In this document: positions 15,343 through 63,330 of the stretch, piece by piece
Position numbering within the stretch: position 1 is the first letter of the stretch
How the letters are laid out: each line of letters begins with the position of its first letter
IMG/VR virus record: IMGVR_UViG_3300009104_001210
Location: 124,001-188,000 of that record
DNA: 64,000 bases
Source: a virus
Reading direction: 5' to 3' (one strand)
Notes under the pieces: generated by a model
Seen by the model: only the letters and a program-made list of their open reading frames with translations
Databases searched by the model: none
What the model was told of the DNA's origin: nothing
Made by a program: the position numbers and the translations under genes

Positions 15343-15587
15343 CATACTATTTATTATTGGAAGAAGATACTGAACAAGATGCTTTGTTCAGCAGTAATAT
15401 CTTAGGAGAAGAAAGTTTTGGTAAATTTTGGCCAGATGAAGGGTTAAAAGCGTTGTACACTATGATGAATCAAAAACCACACCTATTATCACAGGTAGTC
15501 GTTAAAAACGAGAAAAATGAAAAACTCACACTCGAAGAGTTTTTAGACGTAATATCCACATTAAAAATTGAAAAAGAAAAGGCTTGA
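15339..15587 (+). CDS. Small acidic hypothetical protein
   Basis: This 82-residue acidic protein (TYYLLLEEDTEQDALFSS...) is not recognised. Its last codons GCT TGA lie inside the conserved promoter box that begins at 15581, so the -35 element doubles as its C-terminus (...EKA-stop). It overlaps the upstream glycosyltransferase by four bases. Confidence 0.6.
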   Translation: MTYYLLLEEDTEQDALFSSNILGEESFGKFWPDEGLKALYTMMNQKPHLLSQVVVKNEKNEKLTLEEFLDVISTLKIEKEKA

Positions 15588-18480: not shown

Positions 18481-18566
18481 ATAAAACAATTCGTAGTAAT
18501 AAAATAAAACTATGTTGATATATATTATTGGAGTTAGCAAAAATCTTTTTAACCAGAGAAAAATGA

Positions 18567-18797
18567 TTGAATAAAAAAATAGTTATCGTCGGCTTAATAT
18601 TTTTAATCGCCCCGATATTCACGTATTGGGAATACCGATTCACCCCCGACATACAAGATGTCGAGGGATTCCTACCTATCAACACCCAAAGCGTCTCATC
18701 TCGTAGCGTATCTTTATCTCATATTTCTCACCAAGTCAGACTTGTTTCGATTACTAATAGCGGATCATCACCCGAAATGGTATGGTTAGTACAATGA
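18567..18797 (+). CDS. Small exported or membrane-anchored protein
   Basis: It starts at TTG 18567. It has 76 residues: a signal-anchor (KKIVIVGLIFLIAPIFTYW) followed by a Ser-rich extracytoplasmic part. Base composition rises in GC here compared with the glycan genes. It is coupled to the next gene by an ATGA overlap. Function unknown. Confidence 0.5.
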   Translation: MNKKIVIVGLIFLIAPIFTYWEYRFTPDIQDVEGFLPINTQSVSSRSVSLSHISHQVRLVSITNSGSSPEMVWLVQ

Positions 18798-19114
18798 GCG
18801 TAGCTAAAATTTGGTTAAGATTATGGTGGATTGGTATAGGTTTAATAGTTATCAGAGCTAAACTTATTGTTCAACGTCTTAGATGGACACTTGAAGATGA
18901 GTATAGCACCTATAGAGGTTGGAAGAAGCGTAGACATACAGAACCAGCAAGAGTAGCAGATACTATTGTTATACCAACGCCAAAGCAAACTAAATCAAAC
19001 CATGAAGGACCCGTAGACTATACCTCAGCGCCTTACATAGGTAACGGCTCAAGTGGTAAATTCTACGACTCTTCATTCAACGACGATAGTACCACAAACC
19101 AACACGATATATAG
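18794..19114 (+). CDS. Small membrane protein with basic loop
   Basis: The ATG at 18794 in the ATGA junction is preferred to an in-frame GTG/ATG further upstream; the product has 106 residues. It has one N-terminal membrane helix (IWLRLWWIGIGLIVIRA), then an Arg/Lys-rich segment (YRGWKKRRHTEPAR), then a Ser/Thr/Asp-rich low-complexity tail. Function unknown. It is the last gene before the gene-free region. Confidence 0.5.
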   Translation: MSVAKIWLRLWWIGIGLIVIRAKLIVQRLRWTLEDEYSTYRGWKKRRHTEPARVADTIVIPTPKQTKSNHEGPVDYTSAPYIGNGSSGKFYDSSFNDDSTTNQHDI

Positions 19115-19597
19115 ATATATATACAAGAATACACGAAGATTCTCGCTTCGCTCTAAATTTTAAAGCGCCAATACCCGAACAGTATATAGTAATCAGCGCC
19201 TCACTCTGATAAGCTCACAAAGCACACAAATCATTGAATCCTGAAGGATAAATACACTCGCCACTATTATACTTATGTGATATAATATAGGAAAAAAGCT
19301 ACAGGAGAGTAGAGGATGCGCTCTCTTAATGATACTATAAGCGTCTTACATATCATCCATATCCCACCCTTTTAACCCACCACAACCCACGAATATGATA
19401 GATTCATATGGCCTGGGAGTAAAAAATATAATACCTCACTACTAATTTTGCTTAGCGCGTGTGTGTCGCGCGCCATTTCCTGCCAGTAGGGGGGCTTTTC
19501 TACGCTAATGTAGCACGGTAGCCTATCCAAGCGCTATCGTATGACATTTTGACATACCCAGGCGCTAGGATTATATCACCGCCCGCCAAATTTTTTT

Positions 19598-19637
19598 GAG
19601 AAAAGGCTTGACTTATATAGCGTTTCTTTCGTATATT
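19598..19637 (+). promoter_or_regulatory. Recurrent promoter, copy 2
   Basis: AAAAGGCTTGACTTATATAG with TTGACT at 19608-19613, an 18-base spacer and TATATT at 19632-19637. It lies within the gene-free region. Confidence 0.7.
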
Positions 19638-19774
19638 CGTAGTATCATGTAGTATATAGCCCACTTGAAAGGCAGCGCTGTCTAACCTGGTAATATACGC
19701 ACCCTGCCTGAGAAAGTCAAGCTTTATTTTCATTATTTTGGTAAAACCTATACAGGGACCCCCAAATATTCCGC

Positions 19775-19789
19775 GCGGTACGCTAAAAA
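19775..19789 (+). repeat. 15-base direct repeat, copy A
   Basis: GCGGTACGCTAAAAA is identical to the copy at 20230-20244. The two copies bracket promoter copy 3 and the hairpin cluster. Confidence 0.8.
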
Positions 19790-19800
19790 GAAAATAGTGA

Positions 19801-19838
19801 AGAAAAGGCTTGACACGTATTGCTTTATTTTGTATATT
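19801..19838 (+). promoter_or_regulatory. Recurrent promoter, copy 3
   Basis: GAAAAGGCTTGACACGTATTG with a consensus -35 TTGACA at 19810-19815 and TATATT at 19833-19838 (17-base spacer). Its transcript would begin with the hairpin-rich segment 19850-20200. Confidence 0.75.
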
Positions 19839-19849
19839 CCAGTATGATA

Positions 19850-20200
19850 ATGAGGTTATATACTTGACTTAGATAAAGCCCGCTCCATGAAATAAGGGAA
19901 TAGTACTGAAAAGCGGCAAAGGGCGTAAAGCCGCATGAAAAAAGAATGGTATTTCAACGCTTTAGTTGATACTTATTCTTAGAAGGTTTTCATTACGTCA
20001 GGTTCTTATTCCTTTCTACCTGACATACGGTGGGTGGCTATGAAATACTATACAGCCGCCCACCAAAAAAATTAGAAGGTTTGCGGTGGAAGTATCAAGA
20101 GAGATACGCTATTCGTCCAGAGTAGAAGGTGCAGTGCGATTCTGTAACACCGCTCTAACTGAGTAGTATATTACTCACTTGAGTAGTATTTTACTCACTA
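19850..20200 (+). ncRNA. Candidate structured RNA downstream of promoter copy 3
   Basis: No open reading frame fits. Stable hairpins are visible: GCGGC/GCCGC at 19913-19934, GTCAGGT/ACCTGAC at 19997-20024, an 11-base-pair stem (one G-U) at 20029-20039/20054-20064, and two GAGTA/TACTC hairpins at 20161-20196. Together with the strong promoter just upstream this suggests a non-coding transcript or long structured leader. No known RNA class was recognised. Confidence 0.4.
20161..20200 (+). repeat. Tandem 20-base hairpin repeat
   Basis: GAGTAGTATATTACTCACTT is followed directly by GAGTAGTATTTTACTCACTA. Each unit is itself an inverted repeat (GAGTA...TACTC), and the two units differ at only two positions. 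Confidence 0.75.
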
Positions 20201-20229
20201 TATTGGAATAGGTAAAAAACGAAAGAAAG

Positions 20230-20244
20230 GCGGTACGCTAAAAA
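20230..20244 (+). repeat. 15-base direct repeat, copy B
   Basis: This copy of GCGGTACGCTAAAAA ends three bases before the ATG of the next small gene, so it is also the leader of that gene. Confidence 0.8.
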
Positions 20245-20247
20245 ATA

Positions 20248-20442
20248 ATGAGCGCAAACTTACGAAGTATAATAGACATAGATAAAGAGATACAGCAAGA
20301 AATCGTGCAAGATCTAATAAGTGGTATATTCTATACAGAATGCGACGACGAAACGCTTGAAATTGCTCTGCAAGCGATGTTTGAGTCTCCACAGACAAAA
20401 GCGTATTGGCGCTCAACGGGAGTGATTTTAGGGGACGGGTAG
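20248..20442 (+). CDS. Small acidic hypothetical protein
   Basis: The product has 64 residues, acidic and predicted helical (IIDIDKEIQQEIVQDLISG), without membrane segment or recognised motif. It is the first gene after the control region. Its leader lacks a strong Shine-Dalgarno but carries the repeated GCGGTACGC element. Confidence 0.5.
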   Translation: MSANLRSIIDIDKEIQQEIVQDLISGIFYTECDDETLEIALQAMFESPQTKAYWRSTGVILGDG

Positions 20443-20525
20443 GCAATTACTCGTGAATCGCAAAGTATGACAAAATGACACGCTCGCCTTACCTGTACTC
20501 GTATCGAGGAGAAATTTTGAGGAAT

Positions 20526-22304: not shown

Positions 22305-22489
22305 GTAAATATAGAAATAAAGATGGAATAGAATTAAGTTATGAGGGGCATAGTGATGACATCCACGTAGATTTAGTTAAAGAAGTAATTAGTGAAGCCG
22401 TTAGACTTATATCAACGGGTGGTAATAAAAAAGAAGTAATACAATTCTTAACTGAAAATTTTTCCATTAATGAGCAAACTGATAGATAA
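22301..22489 (+). CDS. Small hypothetical protein
   Basis: The product has 62 residues, acidic, with a predicted central helix (DLVKEVISEAVRLISTGGNK). No motif is recognised. Its end overlaps the next gene by 20 bases. Confidence 0.5.
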   Translation: MSKYRNKDGIELSYEGHSDDIHVDLVKEVISEAVRLISTGGNKKEVIQFLTENFSINEQTDR

Positions 22490-22919
22490 AAAATATATAA
22501 TAGAGAGGTTAGAAATGTTGGTTTCTTTAGTAGAGGAAACGAATACAGATGCGCTCCCTACAAATAAATATTTATTTAATGATCATATAATAACTGCTAA
22601 TGAAATGTTAGAAGAAGTAAAACTTATTATTGAAGATTCTGTAGATTCAAGAACGACGTTAACTAGAATAATGAGACAAGCAAATAAAATATGGCGAATG
22701 ACTAATAGAGTTAAGAATGGTGAAGTTGAATTAATAGATCATATGGAAATGATAGAAGAGATAGAACAGTATATAATGTCTGGTCAAAAGATAAATGCAA
22801 TTAAGTGTTATAGAAATAATATGAATCACAATGATAAAGATACTGTTAGTTTAAGAGAAGCTAAAGACTATGTTGATTCAATACACAGAGATATGATAGC
22901 AAGAGGTTCAACTTCATAA
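22470..22919 (+). CDS. Protein with bL12 C-terminal-like domain
   Basis: The 149-residue protein has a helical N-terminal part (1-100). Residues 105-141 read GQKINAIKCYRNN followed by VSLREAKDYVDSI, which follows the signature of the ribosomal protein bL12 C-terminal domain (K-I-x-A-I-K-x-x-R-x...L-x-E-A-K-x-x-V-D). In ribosomes this domain recruits translational GTPases. Other non-ribosomal proteins carry the same fold, so a ribosome-targeting role is inference. Confidence 0.55.
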   Translation: MSKLIDKKYIIERLEMLVSLVEETNTDALPTNKYLFNDHIITANEMLEEVKLIIEDSVDSRTTLTRIMRQANKIWRMTNRVKNGEVELIDHMEMIEEIEQYIMSGQKINAIKCYRNNMNHNDKDTVSLREAKDYVDSIHRDMIARGSTS

Positions 22920-22927
22920 TAAAAGAT

Positions 22928-23019
22928 TTAGTAGAGTGGACGACGCCGGCTTGGGTGAGAGCCCTGTTAACATGATCGTGAGCCCGACTTTGGTTGGTAG
23001 CTTTTTGCCACTCTACTAA
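22928..23019 (+). ncRNA. Structured RNA element closed by 12-bp stem
   Basis: TTAGTAGAGTGG at 22928-22939 pairs perfectly with CCACTCTACTAA at 23008-23019, enclosing a GC-rich 68-base core in an AT-rich region. Inside, TTGGG (22951-22955) can pair with CCCGA (22983-22987), and GGG...CCC alternatives exist. It begins nine bases after one gene and ends ten bases before the next, so it may be a cis-regulatory leader, a ribozyme or a small RNA. I could not match it to a known class. Confidence 0.6.
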
Positions 23020-23029
23020 TAATTAAGAA

Positions 23030-23548
23030 ATGCAAGTAAAAATTATTCAAACATCAGAACCACGTACAGCAAGTACTGTTTTACATAATATATTGTTTGG
23101 TATGATAAGTCCAAATGAACCAGCAGAAGATGCAACAGAAAACGTAGATAAACCTATTGTTATTACACATAAAACAAATATTGATGAGTGGATATCTACA
23201 TATGGTAAGAAATACGATTTATATTTTATATGTTCAGAAAGAGATAAAGTTAGTAAATATCAAGAATATAAGATGGACAAAAAATATCATTCATATAAAA
23301 ATGTTTTGATATTTCAATTTGAAGAATTAGATGATACTGATCAAAGTGAGGAACAGATAGTAGATATAGTACATAAGAAGGTAAGAAAGTTGTTACCAAA
23401 TACTATAGAATTAAATAAAGAGACAGGGTTAAAACGATTAAAAGATATGAATATGAAATATAGTAAGATAAAAGATATGCCATTTCGTAGTTATGTTGAT
23501 CCATTTTATTCATTACATGGACACCATAGAAATAGAGAAGATTCATAA
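23030..23548 (+). CDS. Sulfotransferase-like P-loop protein
   Basis: The 172-residue protein opens with VKIIQTSEPRTASTVLHNIL, which resembles the 5'-phosphosulfate-binding loop of PAPS-dependent sulfotransferases (PRTGST-like), then has PIVITHKTN and DLYFICSERD, possibly the Rossmann strand with Arg/Ser for the 3'-phosphate. It is shorter than typical sulfotransferases (about 250 residues). It follows the structured RNA element directly. Confidence 0.5.
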   Translation: MQVKIIQTSEPRTASTVLHNILFGMISPNEPAEDATENVDKPIVITHKTNIDEWISTYGKKYDLYFICSERDKVSKYQEYKMDKKYHSYKNVLIFQFEELDDTDQSEEQIVDIVHKKVRKLLPNTIELNKETGLKRLKDMNMKYSKIKDMPFRSYVDPFYSLHGHHRNREDS

Positions 23549-23564
23549 TACGTGATATTTATTT

Positions 23565-23978
23565 ATGGATATGATTAAACTACAAAAATTAATGGAACAT
23601 TTTGAAATAGATTCAGAGGATACTGCAGGTATTTGTGTAATCTATGGAAAAAAATTACTTGCGTGTAAACGTACAGAGTCTTATTGGTCAATACCAAAAG
23701 GACATATACATATAAATGAAGAACCATTAGATGGTGCTTTGAGAGAGTTTACAGAAGAGACGCAAGTTATGTTAAATGGTGTACCAGAGTTAGTATCTAC
23801 TACAAATAAAAAAAGTGGTAAATTTTATTTGTATAAATACGAAACTGATAAAAGAATAAACCCACACTTAGATCATGAACATGAAGAGTGGGGATATTTT
23901 GAGGTAGATAAATTACCACAACCCTTTGATGAAAAGGTATTAAATGAGTTACAAAAGGTTATAGGAGATATAAAATGA
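23565..23978 (+). CDS. Nudix hydrolase
   Basis: The 137-residue protein has a full Nudix box: G46-HIHIN-E52 ... R60-E61-FT-E64-E65-TQV fits GX5EX7REUXEE. WSIPKGHI precedes the box as in typical family members. It would hydrolyse nucleoside diphosphates linked to X (NTPs, dinucleoside polyphosphates, NDP-sugars or capped RNA) in the cytosol. The start at 23565 or an ATG at 23571 is possible. Confidence 0.85.
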   Translation: MDMIKLQKLMEHFEIDSEDTAGICVIYGKKLLACKRTESYWSIPKGHIHINEEPLDGALREFTEETQVMLNGVPELVSTTNKKSGKFYLYKYETDKRINPHLDHEHEEWGYFEVDKLPQPFDEKVLNELQKVIGDIK

Positions 23979-26701: not shown

Positions 26702-27916
26702 ATGAAAGAAATATATTTAGATCACGCTGCAACAACTTATGTTAGAGATGAAGTCTTGGGAGTAATGAATAAATATTTCCAAGATGAATATGGAAACCCT
26801 GGTAGTTTCCACACAATAGGATTACGACCTAAACGGGCGATGGCTCAAGCAAGAGAAACCGTTAGAGATATTATTAATGCTAAACGAGTAGAGGAAATTA
26901 TCTTTACGGGTAGTGGAACTGAATCAGTAAATTTGGCAATAAAAGGTTTAGTGGAAAAGTTAGAACCTCATTATGGCCCAGCACATATTATCACTTCTAC
27001 GATTGAACACGAAGCAGTAACTGAAACATTATATTATTTAGAACACGATAGAGGATACCGTATAACAAGAATACCAGTTGATAAATATGGTATGGTTAAT
27101 CCAAAAGATGTTGAAGATGCTATTGAAGAAGATACTATCTTGGTTACTATAATGTATGCTAATAATGAGATAGGAACAATACAACCGATAGAAGAAATCG
27201 GAAAGATATGTAGAGAGAAGAAAGTTTTATTCCATACAGATGCTTGTCAGGCAGGTGGAGTGTTAGATTTAGATGTAGAGAAACTAAATGTAGATATGAT
27301 GACATTGAATGGTAGTAAGATATACGGCCCCAAAGGTATTGGGATGTTGTATAAAAAGAATTCAGTAAAGTTAGTTCCATTGATTCATGGTGGAGGCCAA
27401 GAGTTTGGGTATAGGAGTGGAACACAAAATGTAGCATTCATTATGGGATTTACTGAAGCATTAAGATTAGGTCAGGAAGAAAGAGAGAAAGAAAATAAAA
27501 GATTAATTAAATTAAGAACAATGTTGGAAGAAGGTATATTAAGAAGTATAGATAAAACATTTTTAAATGGTCATCCAACAATGAGATTACCAAACAATGC
27601 TAATATCACTATATCAGATATTGAAGGCGAGGCTATGATGTTGTATTTAAATGAGTATGGGATTTGTACTTCATCTGGAAGTGCTTGTACTTCATTAACA
27701 TTAGAACCAAGTCATGTTATATTGGCAATGGGATTACCATATGAGGTAGCTCACGGAACACTAAGATTTACATTAGGTAGGAAAACTACCAAGAAAGATA
27801 TAGAAAAAATAATAGAGGTTTTACCAGGAATAGTAGAAACACTAAGAAAGATATCTCCAGTAAATGTCAATATGGATAAGTTGGAGATACAGGGAGAAAA
27901 AGTTTATGCCAACTAA
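26702..27916 (+). CDS. iscS: Cysteine desulfurase (IscS/NifS type)
   Basis: The 404-residue class V aminotransferase-fold PLP enzyme has LDHAATTYVRDEV at the start, EHEAV at 103-107, HTDACQ at 178-183, the Schiff-base lysine in NGSKIYGPKG (K206) and the persulfide Cys in TSSGSACTS (C329). It takes sulfur from cysteine for Fe-S assembly and tRNA thiolation. All catalytic residues are present and the length is normal for IscS. It is directly followed by an IscU-like scaffold and a MIP18/SufT-like gene, so the three form a metallocluster operon. Confidence 0.92.
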   Translation: MKEIYLDHAATTYVRDEVLGVMNKYFQDEYGNPGSFHTIGLRPKRAMAQARETVRDIINAKRVEEIIFTGSGTESVNLAIKGLVEKLEPHYGPAHIITSTIEHEAVTETLYYLEHDRGYRITRIPVDKYGMVNPKDVEDAIEEDTILVTIMYANNEIGTIQPIEEIGKICREKKVLFHTDACQAGGVLDLDVEKLNVDMMTLNGSKIYGPKGIGMLYKKNSVKLVPLIHGGGQEFGYRSGTQNVAFIMGFTEALRLGQEEREKENKRLIKLRTMLEEGILRSIDKTFLNGHPTMRLPNNANITISDIEGEAMMLYLNEYGICTSSGSACTSLTLEPSHVILAMGLPYEVAHGTLRFTLGRKTTKKDIEKIIEVLPGIVETLRKISPVNVNMDKLEIQGEKVYAN

Positions 27917-29468: not shown

Positions 29469-30476
29469 ATGAGTCATAAGTTAGAATATATTTGGCTGGA
29501 TGGTGTAGAACCAACAGCGCAGTTAAGAAGTAAAACTAAAATAGTATCAAAGTTTGGTATAGAGGGTGGTGTAACAGCAACACAAGCACCAATATGGGGA
29601 TTTGATGGTTCGTCAACACAACAAGCAGAAGGTGGGAGTTCTGATTGTGTGTTGAAACCTGTAAGATTATATCGAAATCCATTGGAAGAAGGTACATTGG
29701 TATTATGTGAAGTATGGAATGTAGATGATACACCACATAAATCTAATACAAGACATGGTTTAGATAATACATTACAGAGTTTAGATCATGATCCAGAAGA
29801 GTGGGTTGGATTTGAGCAAGAGTATACATTATATGAAGGTGGAATACCTTATGGTTGGCCACCCGATTTAAGTGATCCATTACCACAAGGCGATTATTAT
29901 TGTGGTAGAAATGCTGGAGAACATATAATGAAAGAACATACTGATGCTTGTATAGAAGCAGGTATTAGTATTTGTGGAACTAACGCAGAAGTAATGTTAG
30001 GACAATGGGAATATCAGATTGGTGCAGGTTCTTCATTAGAAATGAGTGATGATTTATGGGTTGCTCGTTGGTTAATGGAAAAGATTTGTGCTGAATATGA
30101 TGTGGAAGTTGTTTTAGATCCAAAGCCAGTTAAGGGTGATTGGAATGGTGCAGGTTGTCATACTAATTTCTCTACTAAAGATATGAGAGGACATGGTGGA
30201 GATGAACTTATATTTAAGGCGTGTATGGATTTAGAGAAGGTACATAAAGAACATATGGCAGAATATGGTGAAGGAAACGAAAGACGACTTACGGGACTTC
30301 ATGAGACTCAGGCTATAGATACATTTAGTTGGGGAGTTTCAGACAGAGGTGCTTCCATTCGTATTCCCTGGCAAGTAGATAAAGATGGTAAAGGATATCT
30401 TGAAGATAGAAGACCATCAGCGAATTGCGATCCATATAGAGTTTGTAAAAAGTTAATTGAGACAATTATTATATGA
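29469..30476 (+). CDS. Glutamine synthetase, type II (eukaryotic-like, GlnII)
   Basis: The 335-residue protein has GFDGSST at 44-50, GFEQEY at 114-119 (metal-binding Glu pair), GAGCHTN at 227-233, the flap region RRLTGLHET at 272-280, RGASIRIP at 293-300 and LEDRRPSANCDPY near the end. These are diagnostic of compact GSII rather than the 470-residue bacterial GSI. It condenses ammonia and glutamate with ATP to glutamine in the cytosol. All catalytic motifs look intact. A divergent second copy lies at 33001. Confidence 0.9.
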   Translation: MSHKLEYIWLDGVEPTAQLRSKTKIVSKFGIEGGVTATQAPIWGFDGSSTQQAEGGSSDCVLKPVRLYRNPLEEGTLVLCEVWNVDDTPHKSNTRHGLDNTLQSLDHDPEEWVGFEQEYTLYEGGIPYGWPPDLSDPLPQGDYYCGRNAGEHIMKEHTDACIEAGISICGTNAEVMLGQWEYQIGAGSSLEMSDDLWVARWLMEKICAEYDVEVVLDPKPVKGDWNGAGCHTNFSTKDMRGHGGDELIFKACMDLEKVHKEHMAEYGEGNERRLTGLHETQAIDTFSWGVSDRGASIRIPWQVDKDGKGYLEDRRPSANCDPYRVCKKLIETIII

Positions 30477-32533: not shown

Positions 32534-33004
32534 ATGAGTTATAAAATAGAGAGTTATACAAGAGAAGAATTAGAGTTATTTCCGAATGATGAATATGGAT
32601 ATGTTAAACAGAGAGTATGGTCTACTGGACAACTTAGTACACTTGAATACTTTGATAGAAATTTTGTAAAAATTTATTTAATAAGAGATGAAAATTTAAA
32701 AATAATAGCCTTTTCTTGTGAAAAAATACCAAGATATGAAGGCTTTGATTTTGAATGGGGATACTCATATGTTGAACCAACATATAGAGGAACTCGATGT
32801 TACTTTAAATTATGTAAATATAAAAGAGATGAGGCTCGACAACAAGGTTTGATTGGTTATACAATATGTTTAAAATCTCAACCCGCTACTGTAAAGTGTG
32901 GTAAAATCCTTTGTGATATTAAAATAGATAATCCATTACATCTTGGAGAAACAGAATCATCTTTTGATAACGAAAATTTAGAATTTTGGGGAATGATGTT
33001 ATGA
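32534..33004 (+). CDS. GNAT-like acetyltransferase
   Basis: The 156-residue protein has a hydrophobic strand (NLKIIAFSCEKI), then YVEPTYRGTRCYFKLCKYKRDEA, which resembles motif A of GNAT enzymes (V.P.YRG.G....L....E.A...G) though the usual G-x-G/A is altered. Its substrate may be an amino sugar or amino acid, and it precedes the glutamine synthetase paralogue. Assignment is tentative. Confidence 0.5.
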   Translation: MSYKIESYTREELELFPNDEYGYVKQRVWSTGQLSTLEYFDRNFVKIYLIRDENLKIIAFSCEKIPRYEGFDFEWGYSYVEPTYRGTRCYFKLCKYKRDEARQQGLIGYTICLKSQPATVKCGKILCDIKIDNPLHLGETESSFDNENLEFWGMML

Positions 33005-34266
33005 ATGTAGCAATAAAATATATTTGGCAGCCAGATCCAGATATAGTTAAATTTGAAGAACTGTATCTAAAACAAGAAACAGATACATATAAAATAAAAC
33101 TAACCGATTTACCAATTAAAAATAGTAAAGAATTGACGAAACGTGAACTACAAACGATTGATTCTGATATAGTGAAACGTGGTTTTATTTTAAAACCAAT
33201 AGGAATTTGGTCAGATCCTTTAGAAGATGATACTCCTGATAAAGCACATTATTTAGTATTATGTGAAGATGGTGTATCTAAAGACTCATACCGTGATAAG
33301 TTAAAAAAATTATTAGAAAAAACAAATTTCTATAATCCCTGGGTTGGAATAGAACAAGAGTATTATCTTTTTCCAAATGAAGATACTACTTCCCCATCAG
33401 AACAAGAATTATTTAATATACAAACATCTGAAGGAGTATGTCAAACTGTTCAAAAACTTCTTGATAACTCAACTCGAAAAAATAATAGAAGATTACTTGA
33501 ACACTTATGTGTTTATTCTAAAAACGAATTATCATCATTGGATACACAAGATGATATAGTTTTTGCTTGTGCTAAAATGGGTTTAAAAGTTAATAGGGTA
33601 CAGGCAGTTAAAGAACAAGGTCCTGGACATTGGGAAGTACAGTTTGGTCCTACAGAACCATTACAAACTTTAGATGAAACAATGATTGGTCGTTATATTA
33701 TATGGAAAATAGGTAATGAAGAATTAACTGTTTCATTTGAACCAAAACCAAAAGGTTGGTCTGTAGAATATGATCTTTGGGCAGGTTCTGGATTACATTT
33801 TAATTATTCTAATGATAAAACAAGAGCAGAAAGTGTTGAAGATTATTTAGATATTAAAAAAGCTGAAGATAATCCATCATCAATAATTGAAATGGATAAA
33901 GAAGAGAGAATAAATCTTATTAAAAAAGCACCATATACTAAAGCATTATTAAAACAATTAGCTAAAAATCATAGAAAACACGTAACTGAATATGGTATAG
34001 GAAATGAAAAAAGACAAGATGGTGATCACGGAACTACTACTGGTAATGTATTTGTTTTATCAAAAGAAATAGATAATAAAAATGTTTCTGTTAGAATAGT
34101 AACTATGGGTTTGAATAAAAGATTATTATCCGACGAAGATTATTATGGATTATATCTTGAAGATAGAAGACCAAGTGCAAATGCTAATCCATATAGAGTT
34201 GCTTTAAGATATTTCGAAACAGTTGCAGAAATGCAAAAGAATAATGAAGGTAAAAAAACTAAATAG
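33001..34266 (+). CDS. Divergent type II glutamine synthetase homologue
   Basis: The start in the ATGA overlap at 33001 gives 421 residues. GSII motifs remain: WVGIEQEYYLF, GHWEVQFGP, GSGLHFNYS and LEDRRPSANANPY. Changes: the N-terminal GFDGSST block of the 29469 enzyme is not seen, there are insertions after the Glu pair and before the flap, and the flap motif HET appears as HGT, losing the Glu that closes the active site. It may be a regulatory or altered-substrate paralogue (gamma-glutamyl ligase-like). Inference. Confidence 0.75.
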   Translation: MNVAIKYIWQPDPDIVKFEELYLKQETDTYKIKLTDLPIKNSKELTKRELQTIDSDIVKRGFILKPIGIWSDPLEDDTPDKAHYLVLCEDGVSKDSYRDKLKKLLEKTNFYNPWVGIEQEYYLFPNEDTTSPSEQELFNIQTSEGVCQTVQKLLDNSTRKNNRRLLEHLCVYSKNELSSLDTQDDIVFACAKMGLKVNRVQAVKEQGPGHWEVQFGPTEPLQTLDETMIGRYIIWKIGNEELTVSFEPKPKGWSVEYDLWAGSGLHFNYSNDKTRAESVEDYLDIKKAEDNPSSIIEMDKEERINLIKKAPYTKALLKQLAKNHRKHVTEYGIGNEKRQDGDHGTTTGNVFVLSKEIDNKNVSVRIVTMGLNKRLLSDEDYYGLYLEDRRPSANANPYRVALRYFETVAEMQKNNEGKKTK

Positions 34267-36186: not shown

Positions 36187-37626
36187 GTGTGTGGCATAGC
36201 AGGTATTTATAGTCATAGGTCTGTAGCACCAGAATTGTATGAGTGTATAGTTCATTTACAACATAGGGGACAAGATGCCGCAGGGATGATGACATATGAT
36301 GAACGTATGCACAAACATAAAGGATTGGGATTAGCTAGAGACGTATTTACAAAAAATAATATATCTTTACTTAAAGGTAATGTTGGTATTTCACATAATA
36401 GATATCCTACACATGGAGAGTTTGGTCATGGTGAGATACAACCCGTATGGACTTCCGTACCATATGGAATAGCAATAGCACATAATGGACAGATAACAAA
36501 CTATGATGAATTAGTAGAAGAAGTTACACAAAAGGAAAAGAGATATCTTAATACCACAAGTGATACTGAAGTTTTATTACATATATTAGCAAATGAATTA
36601 GATAAGAATGGAATACCAAAAACTTCAGAAGAGTTTTTTAATCATTTATGTGAGGCAGTTAGTACTATATTTACAAAAGTTAAAGGGGCTTATTCTGTTA
36701 CAGGTATTATTGTTGGAAAAGGATTAATTGTTTTTAGAGATCCACGAGGTATTAGACCATTAGTTAAAGGTGAAAGAGATGATAACGGTAAAAAGGAGTA
36801 TATCTTTTCATCAGAAAATACTATGTTTTATTCATTAGGTTATGAACCAAAGGGTAATGTATTACCTGGAGAACTTATTTACATAGATGAAAGTGGTAAG
36901 TATTTTAGCAAACGATTAGTTAAGGAAGAATTTAATCCTTGTATATTTGAGTATGTATATTTTTCACGACCAGATGCAGTACTGAATGATGTAGGTGTGT
37001 ATCGTTCAAGATTGAGAATGGGTCAGAATTTAGCATATGCATGGATGAAGAAGTATCCATATATAGTACCTGATATAGTTATACCTGCACCGAGTACGGC
37101 AAATACCGCCGCATTATCATTTGCTCATGAAATAGATGTTAGATATTCAGAAGGATTGTATAAGAATCCGTTTGTTGGTAGAACATTTATTATGCCAGGA
37201 CAAGAAGAACGTAAAAGTTCTGTTAAACATAAACTCGTACCACAAGATACAGAGATACGAGATAAGAAAGTATTAATAGTAGATGATAGCATTGTTCGTG
37301 GTAATACAAGTAAAGAGATAGTAAGAATGGTAAAAGATTTTGGAGCAAAAGAAGTGTATTTTGTTAGTGCTTGTCCACCAATAAAACACCCTTGTTATTA
37401 TGGTGTTGATATGCCAACTAAAGAGGAATTAATTGCTGGAATTAATAAAATAGATACTATTAAAAAAGATTTAGGAGTTGATATTTTACTATATCAAGAG
37501 ATAGATGATTTAGTTGAAGCAGTAACACGAAGAGGTGATCATCATATAGAGAATCCATGTATGGCTTGTCTTGATGGACACTATGTAGTTAATGGAAGAA
37601 AAGTTCATGAATTGGTACTTAATTAA
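36187..37626 (+). CDS. purF: Amidophosphoribosyltransferase
   Basis: The start is a GTG at 36187 that places Cys as residue 2 (MCGIAGIYSHR), the N-terminal nucleophile of the glutaminase domain. Other marks are HRGQDAAGM, HNRYPTHG, IAHNGQI, TTSDTE, FRDPRGIRPL, and the PRPP loop KVLIVDDSIVRGNTS in the second half. At 479 residues it is full length. It makes 5-phosphoribosylamine from PRPP and glutamine, the first committed step of purine synthesis, and so links to the glutamine synthetase upstream. Confidence 0.93.
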   Translation: MCGIAGIYSHRSVAPELYECIVHLQHRGQDAAGMMTYDERMHKHKGLGLARDVFTKNNISLLKGNVGISHNRYPTHGEFGHGEIQPVWTSVPYGIAIAHNGQITNYDELVEEVTQKEKRYLNTTSDTEVLLHILANELDKNGIPKTSEEFFNHLCEAVSTIFTKVKGAYSVTGIIVGKGLIVFRDPRGIRPLVKGERDDNGKKEYIFSSENTMFYSLGYEPKGNVLPGELIYIDESGKYFSKRLVKEEFNPCIFEYVYFSRPDAVLNDVGVYRSRLRMGQNLAYAWMKKYPYIVPDIVIPAPSTANTAALSFAHEIDVRYSEGLYKNPFVGRTFIMPGQEERKSSVKHKLVPQDTEIRDKKVLIVDDSIVRGNTSKEIVRMVKDFGAKEVYFVSACPPIKHPCYYGVDMPTKEELIAGINKIDTIKKDLGVDILLYQEIDDLVEAVTRRGDHHIENPCMACLDGHYVVNGRKVHELVLN

Positions 37627-39169: not shown

Positions 39170-39604
39170 GGGGCTGAATGGTTTCGACAGATGCTATTTG
39201 ATAATATAGTGCAACGGAGTTTGAGTAAGACTTGCTATAAAAGACTCACAAACCCAAAATGGCGATAAATCGCTACAAGGGTTGGAAATTGATTGGCATT
39301 TAGCCAATACCGAACAGATGTTTGACACTTATGTTGAACCTGCAAGGGCTTCCCAACCAACTTACGCATACGCATAAGTTACTGAGTTACCTAACACTCG
39401 GTCATAAAATGAGTTAGGTGGTAGGATGGTTGGTATATGTCTTTGAGTAGGAATTAGACGATAAAGAAACCTATCAGTTAAACTCATCTGAGTAAATGAG
39501 GTATGGTGGGTTGTTAGTTGACTACCGATTTGGAAACTAACTAAGTTGTAAATGACTATTTATTAAAAGTAGACTGGACGCGGGTTCGAATCCCGCCAGC
39601 TCCA
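39170..39604 (+). ncRNA. ssrA: tmRNA (ssrA)
   Basis: The 5' end GGGGCTGAATGGTTTCGACA is the tmRNA signature, and the 3' end GGTTCGAATCCCGCCAGCTCC plus A is a T-arm and acceptor that pairs with the 5' GGGGCTG. A tag ORF probably ends at TAA 39375-39377; read backwards it gives ...ASQPTYAYA-stop, with the stop inside a perfect AACTTA/TAAGTT hairpin as in other tmRNAs. A hairpin ATTGGC/GCCAAT lies upstream. CCA is not encoded. It rescues stalled ribosomes; tmRNA genes are known in some large phages. Confidence 0.93.
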
Positions 39605-39624
39605 CTAAAATTGAGGAGAATATT

Positions 39625-42245: not shown

Positions 42246-42317
42246 GGCCCCATCGTCTAATGGTGAGGACGTCGCCCTTTCAAGGCGGAGATATGGGTTC
42301 GACTCCCGTTGGGGCTA
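42246..42317 (+). tRNA. tRNA-Glu (anticodon TTC)
   Basis: Acceptor GGCCCCA pairs with TGGGGCT (one G-U), T-arm GGGTTCGACTCCC, anticodon loop CTTTCAA with TTC. Discriminator A; CCA not encoded. Only one base separates it from the next tRNA. Confidence 0.95.
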
Positions 42318-42318
42318 C

Positions 42319-42401
42319 GGGCAGGTAGCAAAGCGGTTAAATGCACCAAACCGTAAGTTTGGCGTCGTGAGACTACGGTGGTTCGAATCCATCCCTGCCC
42401 T
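42319..42401 (+). tRNA. tRNA-Tyr (anticodon GTA)
   Basis: Acceptor GGGCAGG/CCTGCCC, anticodon stem CCAAA/TTTGG around CCGTAAG (GTA), long variable arm, T-loop TTCGAATCC. The length of 83 fits the long variable arm of bacterial tRNA-Tyr. The discriminator base appears to be T instead of the usual A. Confidence 0.9.
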
Positions 42402-42402
42402 C

Positions 42403-42475
42403 GGGGCTGTAGCTCATTTGGGAGAGCGCTTCCCTTGCACGGAAGAGGCAGCAGGTTCGATTCCTGTCAGCTCCA
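42403..42475 (+). tRNA. tRNA-Ala (anticodon TGC)
   Basis: Acceptor GGGGCTG/CAGCTCC contains a G-U near the third pair, the anticodon loop CTTGCAC gives TGC, and the T-loop is TTCGATTCC. Discriminator A, no encoded CCA. The next CDS begins two bases later. Confidence 0.93.
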
Positions 42476-42476
42476 C

Positions 42477-50019: not shown

Positions 50020-51354
50020 ATGACATGGATTAATACTAAAACGGTATTCACTTGGAATACTAAGGACAAAAAGTACGAAGAAACTCTTAATGAGGGTTAT
50101 GATTATACTGGTCCTACTGCTGAATGTTTTGGTTGTTTTATAGCAGGAACAGCTGTACCTACCTCAGATGTAACATATGAGTTGATAGAAAATTTAAAAG
50201 TTGGTGATACAGTACTTACAGTTAATACAAATACAAAACCATTCACATTAGAAGAAAATAAAATACTTGAAATAGCTACACCTGTTCATGAGAATATGGT
50301 TGAGATAAAATTTGATGCTAAAATGTTCAAAGATGGTATGCCAACATATAAGTATAGTTTAGATGAAGCAAAACCATCTCCCTCTAAGATAGCAGTTGGT
50401 CCGAAGAAATTTCCAGAGTTCTGGCTTGAAGTTTCAGAACTAGATAAACTTTCTGATGATGAGAAAGAAGCAGAGTTTAATAAATATATTGACGCCACTT
50501 GGAAGGATTTAGTAAATACAAATACATTTGATCACCCATATTTGGTAAAAAATAAAGGTTGGTGTTCATATAAACCAAGTTTAACTAAAGAAACATATAG
50601 TATGGATGTTGGTCAGCTTGAAGTTGGTGATATTTGTTATGTGCTCAATCCTGTAAGGGGAAGAAGTCCTTTTACTGAGGTAAAGATTGTTAGTATTGAA
50701 GAAAAAAATGAAGAAACCCAAACATATAACTTAGCTAGTGTTGAAAATAATCATAATTATTTAGCTAATGGTGTATTAGTTCACAATAAAGAAAGTTTGG
50801 GTGGTGAAGATGTAACTATTTTAAGTAGTTCTGTTGACCACGCTGATGGAGAAGTACATGCTTCTATGTCAATTGATGATAAAGTTTTAGCAGCTAGTAT
50901 TTCAGGTTTACCTGATACAGATGTAGCATCAGAATTTTTATTGTGGGAATATACGGGCAGTGATATTGCTTCTCAAATTACATTAGTTACTGCTTCAGTT
51001 GATTATATTATGTCTTCTTCTCGTAACAATTGGTTAAATATTGATTGTAAAAATGGTAGATCTGATACTTTTAGAATTACACCTGGACACCCATTATTAG
51101 TTAAGAGTGAAAGTTATGGTGAGGGATATGGGCTTCCTGGTTCTACAGGATCAGCAGCACTTACAGGATCTGTTTGGTATTTTGATTATGCAGGAGACAT
51201 TAATACAAATTATAAACTTTTAAGTTCTTCATTGGAAGAGGTAGACATTGAATCAATTACACCATATAGTGCGTCTGAATCGTCTAGCTTTTTTAGATTT
51301 GATATAGAACCACAGGATACATATTTCGTAGATCACATATTAATACATAATTAG
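50020..51354 (+). CDS. Tandem Hint-domain protein
   Basis: The 444-residue protein starts with 35 residues of linker, then FGCFIAGTAVPT with C39 as the putative Hint nucleophile, FDHPYLV (171-176) as the block-B-like His, and NYLANGVLVHNKES with His-Asn at 255-256 followed by Lys. A second, Hint-like half has ITPGHPLLVKS and ends VDHILIHN at the extreme C-terminus. This is like phage and bacterial Hint proteins that cleave or ligate themselves. Both His-Asn ends are present; the second half lacks an obvious first Cys. Confidence 0.75.
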   Translation: MTWINTKTVFTWNTKDKKYEETLNEGYDYTGPTAECFGCFIAGTAVPTSDVTYELIENLKVGDTVLTVNTNTKPFTLEENKILEIATPVHENMVEIKFDAKMFKDGMPTYKYSLDEAKPSPSKIAVGPKKFPEFWLEVSELDKLSDDEKEAEFNKYIDATWKDLVNTNTFDHPYLVKNKGWCSYKPSLTKETYSMDVGQLEVGDICYVLNPVRGRSPFTEVKIVSIEEKNEETQTYNLASVENNHNYLANGVLVHNKESLGGEDVTILSSSVDHADGEVHASMSIDDKVLAASISGLPDTDVASEFLLWEYTGSDIASQITLVTASVDYIMSSSRNNWLNIDCKNGRSDTFRITPGHPLLVKSESYGEGYGLPGSTGSAALTGSVWYFDYAGDINTNYKLLSSSLEEVDIESITPYSASESSSFFRFDIEPQDTYFVDHILIHN

Positions 51355-60537: not shown

Positions 60538-63330
60538 ATGAAAAACAAACGTAATCTAATCTCATTGGTAATAACATTTCTAATGCCTATGTTCATTTAT
60601 GGACAAAGTGTTAGTGGTACGGTTGCTGATGAGGCAGGGAATCCTTTGGCTGGAGCTAATGTAGTTGTACAAGGAACTGATTTGGGTGCCGCTTCTTTGG
60701 AAGATGGTACTTATTCGATTAAAATCGGAGAAGGTTCACATACACTAATAGCTTCTGTTATCGGGTATGAATCATCTTCACAAACAGTAGATGTTAGTGG
60801 AGATATTAGTCTCGACTTTAGCTTAGCGGTTTCCGCAGTCGAGATGTCAGCATTGGAAGTTTTGGCTTCCCGTGCAGGCGAAAAAACACCTGTTGCTTAT
60901 ACTACGGTAGAAAAAGCAGATATGGAATTCCGTCTTGGTAGTCAAGACCTTCCAATGGCGCTTAATCTAACACCATCAGTATATGCTACGCAACAAGGTG
61001 GTGGTGCGGGTGATGCTCGTATCAATGTTCGAGGTTTTAATCAACGGAATGTAGCAGTAATGATTAATGGAGTACCACAAAATGATATGGAAAACGGTTG
61101 GGTTTATTGGTCCAATTGGGATGGTGTAGCAGATGCTGCACATTCTATCCAGATGCAACGTGGTTTAAGTGCTGTTAATTTAGCTACACCTTCCATTGGT
61201 GGAACTATGAACATAATTACAGACCCTACCTCTCACATAAAGGGTGGTAAGGTAAAACAAGAAGTTGGTGCTGGTGATTTTCTTAAAACTACAGTAAACT
61301 ATAATACTGGCTTGATAGGTGATAAATTTGCCTTGAGTGGTACAGTAGTACGTAAAACTGGTGGTGGAATCATTGACAAAACGTGGACAGATGCTTGGGC
61401 ATATTACTTTGGTGCAAGTTACGCACTAAATGCTGATAACCGATTTGAATTATACGCAATCGGTGCGCCACAGCGACACGCACACAATCTATATAAACAG
61501 AATATTGGTGCATATGATGCTGATTTTGCTGCAAGTATAGATGGATATGATACTGAAGCACTTGGTGAAGATGGTAAGTTCAAGGATGTTGGACGTACAT
61601 TTAATCAAAATTGGTCTCCAGTAGACCCATCATATACAGGTAAACAATACTATTATATGTATGGTGCTAAAACAGTAGCAAGACACGATCCCAACTTTAT
61701 TAACGAAAGAGAAAATTTCTTTCACAAGCCTTTAGTAAACCTAAATCATTTTCTAACTATTAATGACAAAACAATGTTAAGTTCAGTATTGTATTGGAGT
61801 GGTGGTTCAGGTGGTGGTACAGGTACTTATGGTAGGATTCCTACTATGGATGCTGATGGTAATCTTGGTGATGATGACTATAAATTTTATTATGGTCGTT
61901 CTCCCTGGACACGTGATTGGAATGCTCTTATCGCTATGAATAGTGGTGATTCTGATACAGTTTATGTAGACAAAAGAGTAATCACACGCACACATGGTAT
62001 TGATAATAATCAATCTGTAGGTATTTTGAGAAATAGCATTAATCGTCAGAATACATATGGCCTTATTTCTAAACTTAATTATGATGTAAGTGATGAACTT
62101 CAATTACAATTAGGTATAGATTGGAGAACTGCTGGTATAGAACACGCACGTGAAGTACGTGATCTAATGGGTGGTGATTATTATGTGGATTATGCTGATG
62201 ATAATGTACCTGATGGTAAAAGAGTTGGATTAGGTGATATAATCGCTTATCATAACTCAACCACAGTTGATTGGTTAGGTGGATTCTTACAAGGAGCTTA
62301 TGCTTCAGGTCCACTTTCAGCCTATGGTATGGTAGGATTATCACAGATTGGATATTCATATCAAGACCATTTTACTGTAGCCGATGAGAAGATTGTAGCA
62401 GATCCTATTTCCACTTTACAATGGAAAGGTGGGGCAATGTATGATGTTACTGATAACGTTTCAGTTTTTGGTAATTTTGGTATTGTTGAAAAGCCACCAA
62501 TTATGGATAATGTAATCTATTATGATGGTACGGTTGCTTCAGATCCTGCAAATGAAAGATTTGTAAGTTCAGAAGCTGGTGCTCACTACGCGACGGATAA
62601 AGTAGCAGTTAAAGTGTCTGCATATAATACAGATTGGAAAGACAGAAACCTTACCAAATCTGTAACAAGCGGACAAGGTTCAAGCGGTGATACTGATGTG
62701 ATTTTCCTTTCGGGGATAAATCAGAATCATAAAGGTGTTGAAGTTGAAGCTTCTACACAAGTACTTGATGTACTTAACTTACAAGCTATAGTAAGTCTTG
62801 GTACTTGGAAGTTTGTAGGTGATGCAGCAGGTAACTATCAAGAAGATGAGTTTAACGAAGAAGGTCAAGTTATCGGACAGACAACTACACCTTATTCTTA
62901 CGCACTTGATGGTTTGTTTGTTGGTGATATGCCTCAAACATCTTACGCACTTGTTGGAACGCTTACACCAATTAAAGGTCTAAAAATGCAAGCAGTATAC
63001 AAACAGTATGATAATAATTATGCTGATTGGAGTCCTGACGCTCGTGAGTATGATGGCTCAGATGCTGGTGCAGATAGAGAACAAGTATGGATGGCACCTG
63101 GATATTCCAGAGTTGACTTACATGCTTCATATGCTCTACCTTCAATTGGTGGTATGGATTTTACCGCATTTGCTCATGTATTTAATGCAACAGATGCAAC
63201 ATACATTCAAGATGCAGTAGATCATAGTCAGTATAATAGCTACGGAGATAAAACTCACGCAGCACACAACGCTGAAGTTTTTCTTGGAACACCAAGATAC
63301 TTTAACGCAGGAATTTCTGTAAATTTCTAA
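60538..63330 (+). CDS. TonB-dependent outer-membrane receptor
   Basis: The 930-residue protein has a signal peptide (ISLVITFLMPMFIYGQ), a CarboxypepD_reg-like domain (SGTVADEAGNPLAGANV...), a plug (INVRGFNQRNVAVMINGVPQ; GLSAVNLATPSIGGTMNIIT) and a long beta barrel ending FNAGISVNF with terminal Phe. All parts of a complete receptor are present. Such receptors import siderophores, vitamin B12 or glycans in Bacteroidota-like cells. A complete copy next to phage-like genes is unusual. Confidence 0.88.
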   Translation: MKNKRNLISLVITFLMPMFIYGQSVSGTVADEAGNPLAGANVVVQGTDLGAASLEDGTYSIKIGEGSHTLIASVIGYESSSQTVDVSGDISLDFSLAVSAVEMSALEVLASRAGEKTPVAYTTVEKADMEFRLGSQDLPMALNLTPSVYATQQGGGAGDARINVRGFNQRNVAVMINGVPQNDMENGWVYWSNWDGVADAAHSIQMQRGLSAVNLATPSIGGTMNIITDPTSHIKGGKVKQEVGAGDFLKTTVNYNTGLIGDKFALSGTVVRKTGGGIIDKTWTDAWAYYFGASYALNADNRFELYAIGAPQRHAHNLYKQNIGAYDADFAASIDGYDTEALGEDGKFKDVGRTFNQNWSPVDPSYTGKQYYYMYGAKTVARHDPNFINERENFFHKPLVNLNHFLTINDKTMLSSVLYWSGGSGGGTGTYGRIPTMDADGNLGDDDYKFYYGRSPWTRDWNALIAMNSGDSDTVYVDKRVITRTHGIDNNQSVGILRNSINRQNTYGLISKLNYDVSDELQLQLGIDWRTAGIEHAREVRDLMGGDYYVDYADDNVPDGKRVGLGDIIAYHNSTTVDWLGGFLQGAYASGPLSAYGMVGLSQIGYSYQDHFTVADEKIVADPISTLQWKGGAMYDVTDNVSVFGNFGIVEKPPIMDNVIYYDGTVASDPANERFVSSEAGAHYATDKVAVKVSAYNTDWKDRNLTKSVTSGQGSSGDTDVIFLSGINQNHKGVEVEASTQVLDVLNLQAIVSLGTWKFVGDAAGNYQEDEFNEEGQVIGQTTTPYSYALDGLFVGDMPQTSYALVGTLTPIKGLKMQAVYKQYDNNYADWSPDAREYDGSDAGADREQVWMAPGYSRVDLHASYALPSIGGMDFTAFAHVFNATDATYIQDAVDHSQYNSYGDKTHAAHNAEVFLGTPRYFNAGISVNF

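Follow-up and report, generated by a model that had tools for sequence, protein, structure and literature searches.

Analysis of the window, a 64,000-nt stretch (bases 124001–188000) of the 216,422-bp record of a large, uncultured, AT-rich phage, revealed an element at 22928–23019 on the + strand, a candidate structured non-coding RNA with a perfect 12-bp closing helix. Judged from its sequence, it probably represents a genuine non-coding RNA element, and as the best explanation we tentatively propose that it forms a cis-acting intercistronic RNA domain of a polycistronic phage mRNA, encoded on the + strand and sealed by the 12-bp helix. The window has a GC content of about 31%, with the majority of its genes on one strand. 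The element takes up the greater part of a 110-nt gap bounded by an upstream stop codon at 22919 and a downstream start codon at 23030; 8 nt separate the helix from the stop codon and 10 nt from the start codon, and the element and both neighboring genes stand, tightly spaced, in a run of genes on the same strand. The upstream gene (22470–22919, +) encodes a 149-aa protein of unknown function with homologues in other phage contigs, the downstream gene (23030–23548, +) encodes a 172-aa protein, possibly sulfotransferase-like, with a 40% identical homologue in phage LR756511, and the next downstream gene (23565–23978, +) encodes a Nudix hydrolase. Since homologous proteins in other phages align near the ends of both neighbors, the gap is truly intergenic, in agreement with the position between two genes given by the sequence-only reading. 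The same reading had called the downstream gene sulfotransferase-like; this gene does adjoin the element on its 3' side, but the family call is weak, as the Pfam search of the 172-aa protein gave no match and the sulfotransferase matches of the LR756511 homologue are sub-threshold (E 0.04–0.1).

The closing helix is formed by TTAGTAGAGTGG (22928–22939, +) as the 5' arm and CCACTCTACTAA (23008–23019, +) as the 3' arm, which are separated by 68 nt and are exact reverse complements, bearing out the perfect 12-bp stem claimed earlier. The 216-kb record was scanned for perfect stems that are 12 bp or longer, contain 5 or more GC, and enclose a loop of 15–150 nt, with the expectation taken from a first-order simulation. 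Two such stems were seen where 0.08 were expected, the second being located at L079:7436–7492. Chance is an unlikely source of a closing stem this long and GC-rich. We regard it as distinctly unlikely that the element is neutral intergenic sequence in which an inverted repeat arose by chance. The low expectation speaks against this, as does the coincidence of the stem with a gap of exceptional GC content and folding energy, while the second 12-bp GC-rich repeat in the record speaks for it, together with the scan of a large sequence by which the stem was found, so that some picking of extremes is expected, and a core that is no more structured than its shuffles.

Of the intergenic gaps of the phage, 57 were 60 nt or longer and were compared; the one holding the element has the lowest folding energy of all and ranks second in GC content, after the tRNA cluster. 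The GC content of the element is 51–52%, against 31% for the window, and its gap, at 0.52 compared with a gap median of 0.32, is far more GC-rich than the other gaps of the genome, which is the GC-IGR criterion. Structured non-coding RNAs have been found through GC-rich gaps of AT-rich genomes (PMC6429828), and the GC and folding energy profile observed here fits a non-coding RNA. The 92-nt element has a predicted folding energy of −33.6 kcal/mol on the + strand (z −2.9, with 1 of 200 shuffles equally good) and −27.3 kcal/mol on the − strand. The 68-nt core gives −16.8 kcal/mol (+) and −9.3 kcal/mol (−), and the core alone shows no excess structure over composition-matched shuffles (z −0.02 on + and +1.29 on −). 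The internal stems are thus no more than base composition gives, and the z of −2.9 for the whole element is due to the closing stem; several other hairpins in the record reach more extreme values, around −5. Two inner hairpins are predicted on the + strand, one at 22953–22964 with 4 bp and a GAGA loop (GGGU-GAGA-GCCC), which does not exceed chance, and one at 22980–23003 (CCGAC-UUUG-GUUGG plus GAGC/GCUU with a 2-nt bulge), which runs into T5 and is nested in the closing helix. Of the GC-rich core with internal stems described from the sequence, the GC content stands and stems can be drawn, but they are not in excess of the shuffles. The distinguishing features of the element are solely its closing stem and its GC content.

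The second inner hairpin resembles an intrinsic terminator in that a GC hairpin directly precedes TTTTT (22980–23006). Its stem has 5 bp (9 bp with the bulge) and lies within the closing helix, and terminator-like sites of this kind were found 4 times in 8 kb, with 2.1 expected. The evident terminators of the phage are simple long, strong hairpins followed by T runs (e.g., at L077:10540–10680 and L081:12440–12580), whereas the hairpin of the element has a short, bulged stem inside another helix, so a role of the element as an intrinsic terminator is less likely. The same hairpin bears on a new riboswitch-like leader or small self-cleaving ribozyme, in which the helix would be P1, the core would bind a ligand or act catalytically, and the 172-aa and Nudix genes would be controlled. 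The junction-like predicted fold, the location directly upstream of a gene, the GC-rich gap within an AT-rich genome, the lack of fit to any known class, and the internal hairpin running into T5 are consistent with this reading, which we nevertheless consider unlikely. Since the closing helix encloses the terminator-like hairpin, the formation of one does not preclude the other, unlike in the usual switch; the inner core has a z of only −0.02; no known small-ribozyme motif was seen in the element by eye; and only identical copies were found, hence no conserved core can be demonstrated.

Searches for known classes and relatives were made at several levels. The Rfam 15 search gave no family at the gathering threshold and none up to E 10, so no known class accounts for the element, and neither ARAGORN nor Rfam placed a tRNA or tmRNA at its site. 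The sole other copy found lies in contig IMGVR_UViG_3300009126_000002, from a phage 99.85% identical to the present one over 6.5 kb, and there the element is identical, so that no covariation can be counted. No such element was found downstream of the 149-aa gene's homologues in three other phage contig sets (L084, L085, and L086–L088), before the 172-aa homologue of LR756511, or in the other phage records searched as relatives, several of which are fragments and some of which share one gene only. A search of 2.9 million viral contigs with exact and gapped patterns of three core parts, and of genome contigs with one such pattern, gave only matches taken as chance; these lie in unrelated, mostly GC-rich sequence and lack the stem, and both of those inspected (L036 and L069) overlap long ORFs. 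The L036 match is similar over 40 nt yet lies opposite a 1496-aa ORF in a contig of 66% GC, and was taken as chance. No diverged relative was found by nhmmer, and a structure-aware single-sequence model recovered identical copies only, across the other phage records and fragments searched and this record, including its first 124 kb and final 8.4 kb. BLAST gave a weak 26-nt match (E 0.4) against phages and nothing against plasmids, and no specific phage counterpart was found in the literature searched. A suspected likeness to a 23S rRNA fragment was rejected, since the score of 28 against E. coli rrlH was matched by 23 of 300 shuffles and fell in a place other than the one suspected. Short open frames that run across the 92 nt, such as MIVSPTLVGSFLPLY, which stops at the TAA in the 3' arm, were likewise taken as chance. 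That the element is a phage-specific RNA of a new class, a riboswitch-like regulator or small ribozyme without a relative in Rfam or the public phage collections searched, appears quite improbable.

The patchy occurrence of the element, which is missing beside homologous neighbor genes of related phages, together with its perfect terminal repeats and a GC content that differs from the rest of the genome, is also what a small mobile or inserted foreign piece of DNA with 12-bp terminal inverted repeats and no RNA function would show, be it a relic or a single copy. We find this origin doubtful, because the 216-kb record holds no second copy, no full-length match occurs in the phage or plasmid collections, and no target-site duplication is seen in the sequence. 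A repeat family or MITE was rejected, as no further copy was found in the 216-kb record, phages, or plasmids.

The element could alternatively be a free-standing small RNA with its own promoter or processing, acting in trans, which we judge to be of low probability. Its compact, GC-rich form with a terminal helix is shared with many stable small RNAs, and a weak promoter-like site, ATGATA-16-CATAAT (22893–22920), would place a start near the 5' end. However, promoter-like sites barely exceed chance in this AT-rich DNA (56 found and 42 expected in 8 kb), the repeated promoter-like motif of the phage is not directly 5' of the element, and a gene starts only 10 nt after it. Riboswitch, ribozyme, and small RNA, all three proposed by the sequence-only reading, are possible functions of low probability. 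The repeated motif, centered around GGCTTGAC with a downstream TATxxT-like hexamer, occurs at 15554, 19596, 19787, 43366, 44307, and 63546, and is probably a phage promoter class read by a host sigma-70-like polymerase.

The window holds further features of note. The region 18500–20500 is poor in long ORFs, has GC-rich parts (up to 58% at 19450–19539), contains the repeated promoter-like motif twice (near 19600 and near 19800), and holds strong paired hairpins (19974–20065). It may encode further non-coding RNAs and, among the loci compared, is common only to the near-identical phage. A full-length tmRNA at 39170–39607 (Rfam, 77.5 bits), missed by ARAGORN, directly follows an IMP dehydrogenase gene, and DNA 79–80% identical to parts of it also follows an IMP dehydrogenase gene in a related phage (L004). 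Three tRNA genes (Glu, Tyr, and Ala) lie back to back at 42246–42476 with zero spacer. Two glutamine synthetase-like genes (29469–30476 and 32986–34266) are located near an amidophosphoribosyltransferase-like gene (36187–37626) and a cysteine desulfurase-like aminotransferase gene (26702–27916), representing nitrogen and sulfur metabolism on the phage. A 444-aa protein (50020–51354) has intein-splicing (Hint-like) matches and, by eye, apparently two domain repeats. A 930-aa protein (60538–63330) carries CarboxypepD_reg-like and TonB-receptor plug domains; such an outer-membrane receptor gene seems unusual for a phage and might, as a guess, point to a Bacteroidota- or Marinimicrobia-like host.

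The proposal of a cis-acting intercistronic domain draws on the 0.08 stems expected, the extremes of gap GC and energy, the spacing, and the better folding of the + strand than of the − strand. Counted against it are the shuffle-like core, the restriction of relatives to the near-identical contig, and the Shine-Dalgarno motif often missing in the window. The 92 nt would be transcribed within a polycistronic phage mRNA, and the + strand transcript would fold into an intercistronic domain sealed by the 12-bp helix. Because the helix leaves 8 nt to the upstream stop codon and 10 nt to the downstream start codon, it could insulate the translation of the two flanking genes, protect the end of the upstream message, or serve as a double-strand cleavage site parting the two messages. 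About half of the ATG ORFs of the window have no clear Shine-Dalgarno motif, which makes any effect on initiation difficult to predict. Phage mRNAs carry intercistronic processing or stability hairpins, for example, the RNase III sites of T7-like phages. The element resembles these sites in having a long perfect helix between same-strand phage genes; as a putative site it differs in that the helix closes a 68-nt GC-rich core rather than a short loop. With the orphan GC-IGR candidates it shares a GC-rich gap in an AT-rich genome, a predicted fold, and unknown function, whereas the GC-IGR motifs rest on the comparison of homologues (PMC6429828) and for the present element no diverged homologue was found in the databases searched. 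At present the element is an orphan candidate of this kind, worth targeting chiefly with expression data or deeper searches of metagenomes. Large phages hold many unexplored intergenic RNAs, and this one, if functional, would serve in the regulation or processing of a phage operon and would have no described counterpart.
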